NCBI RefSeq assembly: GCF_021405525.1
Contig: NZ_JAGQAG010000001.1
Location: forward strand, 2,728,001-2,792,000
Direction: 5' to 3'
Length of the DNA: 64,000 bases
DNA from: Ruegeria pomeroyi
Lineage (GTDB): Bacteria > Pseudomonadota > Alphaproteobacteria > Rhodobacterales > Rhodobacteraceae
Shown in pieces: positions 16,640 through 62,541 of this stretch. Under the pieces are notes generated by a model that had not been told where the DNA came from, did no database searches, and saw nothing but the letters and a program-made list of their open reading frames with translations. Each line of letters starts with the position of its first letter. Positions within the stretch are counted from its first letter, which is position 1. The translations under genes and the position numbers were made by a program.

Positions 16640-16726
16640 TGGTGCGGTCGAGAAGACTCGAACTTCCACGGGTGTTACCCCACAGCGACCTCAACGCTGC
16701 GCGTCTACCAATTCCGCCACGACCGC
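16640..16726 (-). tRNA. tRNA-Leu (anticodon GAG), CCA encoded
   Basis: The minus strand folds as a class II tRNA. The acceptor stem is GCGGTCG/CGACCGC with discriminator A and an encoded CCA (16640-16642). The D arm carries the leucine-type AATTGGTAGACGCG sequence. The anticodon stem-loop is CAGCG-TTGAGGT-CGCTG, giving anticodon GAG, which reads CUC and CUU. A long variable arm and a TTCGAGT T-loop follow. Size without CCA is 84 nt. Confidence 0.95.
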
Positions 16727-24704: not shown

Positions 24705-25181
24705 ATGCCCTATGACTGGAAACGCACCGATACCCTGCAAGAGCTGCATCTGTGGCCGCACAACTCGTTGCCGCCGCGTGGGGCGGCCGCCTTGGTGCTG
24801 TCGATCTTTGCGCTTGGGGTGCTGCCGCTGATCGCGGTTCTGGGGTCGCCACTCTTGTGGGGGTTGTTGCCGTTTCTATTGCTGGCGGTCGCCGGGCTGT
24901 GGCTGGCTATCGAGATGAACTATCGCCAGCGCCGCATCCTCGAAATACTGACGCTCGACCCCGAACGCGCGCATCTGGTGCGCCACAACCCGCGCGGGGC
25001 GGCGCAGGAATGGGATTGCAACCGCTATTGGGCGCGCGCCACCATGCATGCTCATGGCGGACCGGTGCCCCATTACGTGACCCTCCAGGGTGGCGGGCGC
25101 GAGGTCGAGATCGGGGCGTTTCTGTCCGAGGATGAACGCATCGCGCTTTACGACGATCTGCGGGACATGCTGGCGCGGTGA
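24705..25181 (+). CDS. DUF2244 integral membrane protein
   Basis: 158 residues with an N-terminal polar strand (ELHLWPHNSLPPRG), two membrane helices (about 28-48 and 52-70) and a cytoplasmic beta-rich domain, the DUF2244 layout. In many Rhodobacterales the family is encoded near cytochrome oxidase genes, as here (ctaD is 1.2 kb upstream), which hints at a role linked to the oxidase or to nearby membrane processes. Function is undescribed. The -35 of the following attenuator promoter begins one base after its stop. Confidence 0.82.
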   Translation: MPYDWKRTDTLQELHLWPHNSLPPRGAAALVLSIFALGVLPLIAVLGSPLLWGLLPFLLLAVAGLWLAIEMNYRQRRILEILTLDPERAHLVRHNPRGAAQEWDCNRYWARATMHAHGGPVPHYVTLQGGGREVEIGAFLSEDERIALYDDLRDMLAR

Positions 25182-25210
25182 TTGACAGGAGCGGCATGGC
25201 GGGCTAGGCA
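25182..25210 (+). promoter_or_regulatory. Promoter of the aromatic leader and prephenate dehydrogenase gene
   Basis: A consensus -35 TTGACA (25182-25187) is followed after exactly 17 bases by TAGGCA (25205-25210). Transcription should start about seven bases later, at or next to 25217, which is the A of the leader-peptide ATG. The leader mRNA would therefore be leaderless, as known for the trpL leader of Sinorhizobium meliloti. Confidence 0.65.
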
Positions 25211-25216
25211 AACGAC

Positions 25217-25270
25217 ATGCAACAGACACGCGCCTTTGTCAGCACCGTCTATTATCCGCCGTTCACATAA
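25217..25270 (+). CDS. Phe/Tyr-rich leader peptide (17 aa) of the attenuator
   Basis: The short frame encodes MQQTRAFVSTVYYPPFT. Two adjacent Tyr codons (25250-25255) and two Phe codons (25235-25237 and 25262-25264) serve as control codons. The Tyr pair ends exactly where the first strand of the downstream hairpin series begins (25256), the position at which a stalled ribosome would mask that strand. There is no convincing ribosome site; the promoter predicts leaderless translation. It precedes a prephenate dehydrogenase gene, the committed step to tyrosine. Confidence 0.7.
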   Translation: MQQTRAFVSTVYYPPFT

Positions 25271-25329
25271 CGGCGGCAGCATTTCCTGTTCAACCGCCGC
25301 GATCCGGCGGTCCGAACAGCTTCTCACTT
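25256..25329 (+). promoter_or_regulatory. Transcription attenuator (mutually exclusive hairpins) before tyrA
   Basis: Strand 1 CCGCCGTT (25256-25263) pairs perfectly with strand 2 AACGGCGG (25269-25276). Strand 2 can instead pair through CGGCGG (25271-25276) with strand 3 CCGCCG (25294-25299). Strand 3 also pairs with strand 4 CGGCGG (25305-25310), a hairpin extended by CTGTTC (25286-25291) with GAACAG (25314-25319), then CTTCTCACTT. This is the classical pause, antiterminator and terminator set. The terminal T-run is weak, so the exact stop mechanism is uncertain. Confidence 0.65.
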
Positions 25330-25369
25330 GACCACATGACCCGGCATCGCGGCCCCTTCGGAGCCTGTC

Positions 25370-26122
25370 ATGTCCTGTCACCTTACCTTTACCTCGGTCG
25401 GCCTCTTGGGTTTTGGCGCCTTTGGCCGCTTGATCGCGACGCATCTGACGCCACATCTGCCCTGCCTGATCCATGACCCCGCCATGCCCGATGGCATCAA
25501 CCTCCCCGTCGGCGCACGGGCTGTCCCGCTGATAGAGGCGGCGGGCTGCAACCTGGTGATCCTTGCGATGCCCGTCGCGGGCATGGCCGAGGCCTGCCGC
25601 GCCATCGCCCCACTTCTGCGCCCCGGTGCGGTGGTGGCCGATGTGGGCTCGGTCAAGATGACCCCGGCGGAGATCATGCAGGCGAACCTGCCCAGCCATG
25701 TGGCGTTGATCGGCACGCATCCCCTGTTTGGTCCGCAAAGCGCGCGACACGGGATTGCCGGGCACAAGATCGCGCTTTGCCCCTTGCGGGGCCGCGCCCA
25801 TCTGCCGGTGGCCGCGTTCCTGCGGGCGCGGCTGGGGCTGCGGGTGATCATCACCACTCCCGAAGCGCATGACCGCGAGGCCGCCACGGTACAGGGGCTG
25901 ACCCACCTGATCGCGCAGGCGCTGAACCGGATGGGCCCCTTGCCCGACCGCATGACCACCGCCAGCTTCGAGCTGCTGAAACAGGCGGTCGAGATGGTAC
26001 GTCACGACCCGCCCGGCGTTCTGGCCGCCATCGAAAGTGCCAATCCCTTTGCCGCGGGCGTGCGCGAAGAATTTCTGGATCTCGTGACGGGGCTAGACCA
26101 CGCCTATGCGGCGCCAAAATAG
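25370..26122 (+). CDS. tyrA: Prephenate/arogenate dehydrogenase
   Basis: 250 residues. An N-terminal Rossmann fold (GLLGFGAFGR) is followed by the family's DVGSVK and GTHPLFGPQSA motifs, the latter carrying the catalytic His. It oxidatively decarboxylates prephenate (or arogenate) toward tyrosine with NAD(P). It is short for the family (usually 280-310) and lacks any ACT domain, so allosteric feedback may be absent and control left to the attenuator upstream. It is monocistronic, with a terminator five bases after the stop. Confidence 0.88.
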   Translation: MSCHLTFTSVGLLGFGAFGRLIATHLTPHLPCLIHDPAMPDGINLPVGARAVPLIEAAGCNLVILAMPVAGMAEACRAIAPLLRPGAVVADVGSVKMTPAEIMQANLPSHVALIGTHPLFGPQSARHGIAGHKIALCPLRGRAHLPVAAFLRARLGLRVIITTPEAHDREAATVQGLTHLIAQALNRMGPLPDRMTTASFELLKQAVEMVRHDPPGVLAAIESANPFAAGVREEFLDLVTGLDHAYAAPK

Positions 26123-62340: not shown

Positions 62341-62380
62341 GAAAAACCCCAATCGCGGGTCAAGCGAAAGGGGGTCTTTC
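62341..62380 (-). promoter_or_regulatory. Possible terminator/expression-platform hairpin after the SAM-II riboswitch
   Basis: On the minus strand GAAAGACCCC (62380-62371) can pair with GGGGTTTTTC (62350-62341) over ten positions with one G-U, followed by TTTG. It overlaps the ATG at 62382 and may act as a weak terminator or as an added block to translation. Confidence 0.4.
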
Positions 62381-62385
62381 ATCCT

Positions 62386-62446
62386 GACCTTTTAGCGGTG
62401 ATGTTTAGCGTGGCCCGCAATCCGGTAACAAATCGCCACGTGGTTC
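62386..62446 (-). ncRNA. SAM-II riboswitch controlling metZ
   Basis: The minus strand reads CGTGGCGATTTGTTACCGG, ATTGCGGGCCACGCTAAA, then CATCACCGCTAAAAGG. These match the SAM-II consensus: stem P1 CGTGGC/GCCACG, the GATTTG and ATTGC joining strands, the CTAAA pseudoknot strand and the final GCTAAAAGG that contains the Shine-Dalgarno sequence. SAM binding should hide that site. It stands 82 bp before the conventional metZ start. Confidence 0.85.
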
Positions 62447-62541
62447 CTGACAAGGGGCTTTAGACCCGTGAAGCAGTTGCGTCAAGCCCGCGCGCATCGG
62501 ATCGCGAAGCAGTCATCGATCTCGCGCCTCGAAACGGCGGG

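Follow-up and report, generated by a model that had tools for sequence, protein, structure and literature searches.

A second, short prephenate dehydrogenase gene of alphaproteobacteria and its putative tyrosine-sensing, leaderless translational attenuator

We propose that a second, short prephenate dehydrogenase gene (tyrA type) of Ruegeria pomeroyi is controlled by a leaderless, tyrosine-sensing translational attenuator; from the sequence of the gene and its relatives, we put the probability of this reading at roughly 0.6. The gene lies in the window, by which we mean the whole 64,000-nucleotide stretch of DNA that was analysed. Its RNA would start at the AUG of a frame of 14-17 codons with conserved Tyr codons, and hairpins 1:2, 3:4 and 5:6 would follow.

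Table 1 Coordinates of the proposed leader elements, the short tyrA gene and two unrelated features of the window.
Feature	Positions	Strand	Details
Sigma-70-type promoter	25182-25210	+	TTGACA 25182-25187, 17-base spacer, TAGGCA 25205-25210; read from sequence
Predicted leaderless leader peptide frame, MQQTRAFVSTVYYPPFT	25217-25270	+	17 codons plus TAA, stop included
Putative sensing Tyr-Tyr codons, TAT TAT	25250-25255	+
Strand 0 (leader start)	25217-25230	+	Pairs with strand 2b; could close leader AUG
Strand 1	25256-25263	+	8 bp with strand 2
Strand 2	25269-25276	+	Begins within leader stop codon
Strand 2b region	25279-25291	+	Partner of strand 0
Hairpin 3:4	25286-25319	+	Inner 25293-25299 with 25305-25311; outer 25286-25291 with 25314-25319
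Hairpin 5:6	25334-25373	+	Arms 25334-25340 (ACATGAC) and 25367-25373 (GTCATGT); covers tyrA start codon
Segment 5 stretch, ATCGCGGC	25346-25353	+	Complementary to GCCGCGAT 25296-25303 (strand 3 plus loop)
Short prephenate dehydrogenase (tyrA type), 250 aa	25370-26122	+	Pfam PF02153, 3.8e-16
SAM_alpha riboswitch	62372-62449	-	Rfam RF00521, 54.7 bits
tRNA-Leu	16640-16726	-	Anticodon gag

The leader, its gene and their distribution

The ATG at 25217 is located six bases past TAGGCA, as read directly from the sequence, and by the promoter spacing the RNA very likely begins at this position, the A of the leader AUG. The sequence-only reading of the region had described the promoter, the 17-codon frame and the hairpins and had called the leader leaderless; direct inspection bore out the former at their coordinates, and the promoter spacing speaks for the latter. 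A TTGAC was located 35-39 bases ahead of the leader AUG in 52/52 leaders, a count made up of 34/34 leaders found without a promoter filter, two found via an RNA model and 16 found via a filter requiring TTGA or YY.

Tyrosine is very probably the sensed residue of this Tyr-coding leader ahead of tyrA. All 52 tabulated leaders have Tyr at the putative sensing site and 46 of them have Tyr-Tyr, the first Tyr codon being TAT in 48 leaders and TAC in 4. In the search for the first 34 frames, a Tyr or a Phe codon was demanded within the final nine codons; either residue was accepted, and Tyr itself was not a requirement. A simple reading of the 65 model-aligned leaders found Tyr within the last eight codons in 64; in the exception, L095, the frame runs on, and L096 begins at CTT in the model alignment. 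A single Tyr codon is present at the site (YP, YH, YR or YS) in L034, L035, L037 and L038 of Methylobacterium and in L067, L075 and L087 of family f70, and from these leaders one Tyr codon may be enough for sensing. The region had been taken for a Phe/Tyr leader, of which only the Tyr half stood; sensing of Phe was rejected because Phe is not conserved and is missing entirely from 23/52 leaders.

The gene downstream had been described as a short tyrA without an ACT domain, and Pfam agrees in giving prephenate dehydrogenase only: no ACT domain was found in the 250-aa product, which, at an E limit of 0.001, matched PF02153 alone in Pfam. The product fell under the cut-off for all 17 NCBIfam models that it matched, and its closest relative with a solved structure is prephenate dehydrogenase 1 (5t9f, 5e-18), which we take to be the soybean enzyme. 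Because an ordinary tyrA-like match is present elsewhere in the same genome (7.8e-13), the short tyrA seems to provide this activity a second time.

Among the short-tyrA orthologue loci examined, the leader was present at 64/81 and missing at 17/81; the leader-bearing groups are Rhodobacterales, Hyphomicrobiales and sphingomonads, on chromosomes and plasmids. An RNA model, R1, was built on 34 of the 64 leaders and recognizes the remaining 30 with E values of 1.3e-7 or lower. The 17 leader-lacking loci gave no R1 match below E 0.04, and the longer, ordinary gene had the leader beside it at 0/16 loci (best R1 E 0.22). In the genome that holds the window, R1 matches once. Judged by these comparisons, the leader layout is one that belongs to short tyrA.

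The idea of a leader had been made beforehand to hinge on conservation in relatives, and the frame and stems are kept: the leader is present in 5/5 genomes of the genus and at 18 of the 19 loci of the family, where the short gene was found in 19/295 genomes (E below 1e-50) and L007 is the exception. In the named genomes, counted as 18 distinct loci with L047 a duplicate of L010, 13 loci have the leader and those without it are three Brevundimonas and two partial Rhizobium loci. Family f70 has the gene in 34/199 genomes (E up to 1e-25) and the leader in 21/30 loci examined. The nine f70 loci without a leader (L071, L077, L079, L082, L083, L085, L086, L091 and L092) all belong to genus g596, which suggests that one clade lost the leader or had the gene captured by an operon.

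The gene was also found in 20 plasmid records, and 9 of the 11 examined have the leader, from Labrenzia, Roseibium (two), Paracoccus (four), Haematobacter and Methylobacterium bullatum; no leader was found in Thioclava, where the gene overlaps the preceding gene, or in a Bradyrhizobium fragment. A plasmid search using the leader DNA alone gave no match. On a plasmid of Paracoccus sp. SMMA_5 (L100), the leader-tyrA unit is two genes away from hmgA, the gene of homogentisate dioxygenase in tyrosine breakdown. At L008 the tyrA match holds one internal TAA and the leader is intact; this tyrA copy may be broken.

R1 also matches leaders that have T-rich tracts after 3:4 and precede tyrosine--tRNA ligase genes, namely L063 (...AVYFARLP) and L109 (...AFYYATFR), whose genes match TIGR00234 at 2e-88 and 9.4e-89, respectively; both are Tyr-type leaders whose hairpin resembles a terminator, and in the family of L063 an R1 match was found in 1/14 genomes. 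In family f66, R1 matched in 22/61 genomes, and 14 of the 15 loci read precede a GNAT-like acetyltransferase gene. These GNAT-type leaders (L064, L108 and L110-L121) end in ...WYFTxxx, with Trp-Tyr-Phe in 14/14, and have a T-rich tract. When the GNAT domain was checked at three loci, L064 and L110 matched and the partial L114 did not. By eye, the GNAT-type leaders contain a complement of the Shine-Dalgarno sequence (e.g., CCTCCGG/CCGGAGG), and complementary segments around the Shine-Dalgarno sequence were seen by eye at both tyrS- and GNAT-type loci. The tyrS and GNAT leaders look like siblings of the tyrA leader design, and the Trp-Tyr-Phe run points to GNAT-type leaders that sense each of the three aromatic amino acids.

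Pairing of the strands and their co-evolution

The RNA from 25217 to 25385 folds at -56.4 kcal/mol (z -3.29), which 0/200 dinucleotide shuffles equalled. The mutually exclusive hairpins that had been pointed out in the sequence are present: besides stem 1:2, hairpin 3:4 has an inner arm of 6-7 bp (7 bp in the fold) and an outer part of 6 bp, and strands 2 and 3 are complementary over 6 bp (CGGCGG/CCGCCG). The fold also pairs the 5'-terminal AUGC with GCAU at 25279-25282, a part of 0:2b, which is weak in the window itself (-5.2 kcal/mol). This 5'-end pairing and the hairpin 5:6 over the tyrA start are elements beyond the original description; the tyrA Shine-Dalgarno sequence GGAG (25360-25363) sits inside 5:6.

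Compensatory changes were looked for in relatives and were found in stems 1:2 and 3:4. On an alignment of 65 leaders fitted to the model, which leans towards its own structure, 10/15 pairs changed on both sides, with changes of this kind in 75 cells compared with 20.0 for shuffles, and the covariation score was 0.284 against 0.149 for shuffled alignments, 0/500 of which scored as high. A slide of one base cut the share of paired cells from 86.8% to 31-32%. After sliding by three bases 56-65% were still paired, because the arms repeat CCG/CGG, and the score went down to 0.07-0.11. With a plain alignment, RNAalifold found only 4 pairs, all in stem 1:2; since the plain alignment shifts the stems, we adopted the model-fitted alignment together with strand-swap tests.

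In the strand-swap test, the pairing energy of strands from the same leader is compared with that of strands swapped among 30 dissimilar leaders, which are treated as independent in the z values although they are not fully so. The z values (reversed-strand controls in parentheses) were 5.3 (0.65) for 0:2b, 6.3 (1.7) for 1:2, 7.5 (0.3) for 5:6 and 10.3 (2.0) for 3:4, the last being inflated by a hairpin finder that chose the arms for their pairing. For 3-loop-4:5, z was 6.35 (-0.25) with segments widened after a scan; the first choices, 3:5 and 4:5, had given p 0.014 and 0.028, and the wider ones gave z 4.8 to 6.4. Strands 2 and 3 keep their complementarity in sequence but showed no covariation (z 0.9, control 1.25, in the 30 leaders; 2/6 held-out leaders), and the 2:3 pairing postulated earlier is thus retained in sequence without compensatory changes.

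When 1814 pairs of segments were scanned openly, 3:4 came out on top (z 9.4), followed by 5:6 (5.6), 0:2b (4.7) and 1:2 (4.1), in a distribution with an sd of 1.39, 49 values above 3, 7 below -3 and a lowest value of -4.1. A patch that links the 3:4 loop region with segment 5 reached z 3.8, which is not significant by itself because of this wide scatter. A few other spots near 3.5-3.8, e.g., the leader start with bases after strand 4, are unexplained.

In six held-out plasmid leaders, agreement was seen for 3:4 in 6/6, for 5:6 in 6/6 and for 0:2b, 1:2 and 3-loop-4:5 in 5/6 each, where the 3:4 arms of L097, L101 and L107 were named by eye after the automatic finder had chosen another hairpin; this naming raised 5:6 from 4/6 to 6/6 and 3-loop-4:5 from 4/6 to 5/6. 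What the finder took in L097 and L107 was the pairing of strand 4 with segment 5. The loop plus strand 4 can form nine consecutive pairs with segment 5 in L107 and eleven in L100; in many members, the window included, the partner of segment 5 is strand 3 plus the loop, not strand 4. Kissing of the 3:4 and 5:6 loops was also considered and is unsupported (p 0.57 in 30 leaders; 0.065 in all 52).

GC-rich DNA folds easily, and the hairpins and the frame might therefore have arisen by chance. Against a fold z of -3.29 and conservation with covariation across 65 leaders, we find this hardly credible. It is also conceivable that the main targets of the leader RNA, or of its peptide, lie in trans, like those of rnTrpL/peTrpL of Sinorhizobium, whose leaderless trp leader works in trans according to PMC10117765. 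The co-evolving partner is here the tyrA start itself, and the genome of the window has only the one match to the leader model, so we consider action mainly in trans very unlikely.

Output and switching

Hairpin 5:6 probably hides the tyrA ribosome-binding site, and often the start codon too, so that the output would be translational control. In minimum-energy folds, the Shine-Dalgarno/start region had at least four bases paired to segment 5 in 52/58 and the start codon itself was paired upstream in 35/58; the 5:6 domain alone was modestly above shuffle stability (mean z -1.40; below -1 in 19/30). At least five U among the eight bases that follow strand 4 were counted in 2/52 leaders (L062 and L035), and the window has no U-tract of note after 3:4. 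The few U-tracts, together with the pairing of the Shine-Dalgarno/start region in most folds, are the reason why we favour translation as the output.

In a trp-type transcription attenuator, 3:4 would be an intrinsic terminator and 2:3 the antiterminator. Some members fit such a design: a tract of six T (TTTTTT) after strand 4 is clear by eye in L062, as is the T-rich tract GGCGGCATTCTTGTTT in the held-out Haematobacter L102, and T-rich tracts follow 3:4 in the related tyrS (L063, L109) and GNAT leaders. A terminator would, however, leave the co-evolving hairpin over the start codon unexplained, and in 50/52 leaders these eight bases contain four U at most. We rejected 3:4 as a terminator for nearly all members, for which the attenuation by termination suggested earlier is unsupported, and regard the trp-type explanation as improbable.

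Rho-dependent attenuation, in which an untranslated tyrA or an exposed spacer would let Rho stop transcription in the leader or early tyrA, would need no U-tract, and RNA free of ribosomes would be available to it if the start codon is hidden. Pyrimidine-rich tracts behind 3:4 were seen by eye in some members but are missing, again by eye, in others. We think that this explanation is quite improbable; Rho action could add to translational control.

For the translational attenuator, the following course may be pictured. When Tyr-tRNA is ample, the ribosome would reach the leader stop, 3:4 and 5:6 would form and tyrA would stay untranslated; after this run-through, strand 0 would pair with 2b and shut the leader. 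The co-evolution of the two strands suggests that 0:2b closes the leader AUG after the first ribosome. When Tyr-tRNA is scarce, the ribosome would pause on the Tyr codons and cover strand 1, strand 2 would pair with strand 3, and the freed end of strand 3, the loop and strand 4 would grab segment 5 ahead of the synthesis of strand 6, leaving the tyrA start open.

This route via 2:3 and 3-4:5 is tentative, and we are inclined to doubt it; the 2:3 pairing, which would couple the stall to the switch, is the one that showed no covariation. In full-length folds of 36 leaders, the expected pairs of 5:6 were 6.9 with the ribosome on the Tyr codons vs 9.3 with the ribosome at the stop, and those of 3-4:5 were 2.2 vs 0.8, but 3:4 with 5:6 was still favoured on average in the stalled folds. 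In folds cut before strand 6, 3-4:5 was preferred in both states (9.5 at the stop vs 6.8 stalled); at equilibrium segment 5 is thus captured whether or not the ribosome stalls, which lowered our confidence in the route. The Shine-Dalgarno sequence stayed closed at equilibrium when either strand 3 or strand 4 was released, its mean accessibility going from 0.27 to 0.29 (up in 10/30, down in 7/30) and, in a second calculation, from 0.36 to 0.34-0.39; a simple equilibrium release of the Shine-Dalgarno sequence by strand 4 is unsupported by these calculations. Since the equilibrium folds give two rival states with no clear choice upon stalling, the choice would have to be kinetic.

A still wider and more speculative picture, which as a whole we think unlikely, is a six-strand translational switch that is decided once. 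The leaderless ribosome would sense Tyr during transcription, 3:4/5:6 or 2:3/3-4:5 would be chosen kinetically before the tyrA start is made, and the 0:2b self-lock would stop a repeat. The same aromatic leader design would be fitted to tyrA, tyrS and the GNAT acetyltransferase gene and would act, across alphaproteobacteria, through translation, a terminator or both.

If the proposed attenuator is real, it would offer a plausible means of regulating an enzyme in which no ACT (feedback) domain was found, and it would be a compact example of amino acid sensing that acts on translation and needs no intrinsic terminator. The Tyr leader and its one tyrA, which stay together in several alphaproteobacterial orders and also occur on plasmids, would then form a regulatory unit in which the switch moves with the gene it controls.

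Comparison with known systems

In the erm and cat translational attenuators, a ribosome stalled on the leader frees a hidden Shine-Dalgarno sequence and antibiotics are sensed. The leader stall proposed here would likewise free a hidden Shine-Dalgarno sequence, whereas what is sensed would be an amino acid. T-boxes read tRNA and do so without a leader peptide; in contrast, a leader peptide is predicted here, and Rfam, T-box included, gave no match in 25150-25450 (E up to 1) or in six related loci. Attenuators of proteobacterial amino acid genes were reportedly described by Vitreschak et al. in 2004, and the leader peptide plus alternative hairpins are common to attenuators of that type and the tyrA leader.

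The relevant part of a 2005 survey (PMC1262725) assigns histidine, threonine and phenylalanine to attenuators and tyrosine genes to T-boxes, which sets the present leader apart from those attenuators. Actinobacterial T-boxes, as outlined in that part of the survey, hide the ileS Shine-Dalgarno sequence, and shortage of the amino acid opens the start, as is proposed here for tyrA. Tyrosine is not mentioned in the main texts of the profiling papers on Sinorhizobium (PMC10117765) and Caulobacter (PMC4117421). In the open-access literature, with subscription papers and preprints outside the scope, we found no Tyr leader before tyrA.

Like Sinorhizobium trpL, as presented in part of PMC10117765, the leader is alphaproteobacterial, its RNA would begin at the leader AUG and it has codons for the end product. 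That trp system is described as a transcription attenuator; here, in contrast, nearly all members are without a U-tract, and a hairpin appears to hide the start codon. The closest idea is that of the mycobacterial polycysteine leaderless short frames (Canestrari et al. 2020, as reviewed in PMC9031893), which are leaderless, contain consecutive codons for the amino acid in short supply and make downstream translation follow the speed of the ribosome. Theirs is Cys in mycobacteria and ours is Tyr; the comparison covers the short frames.
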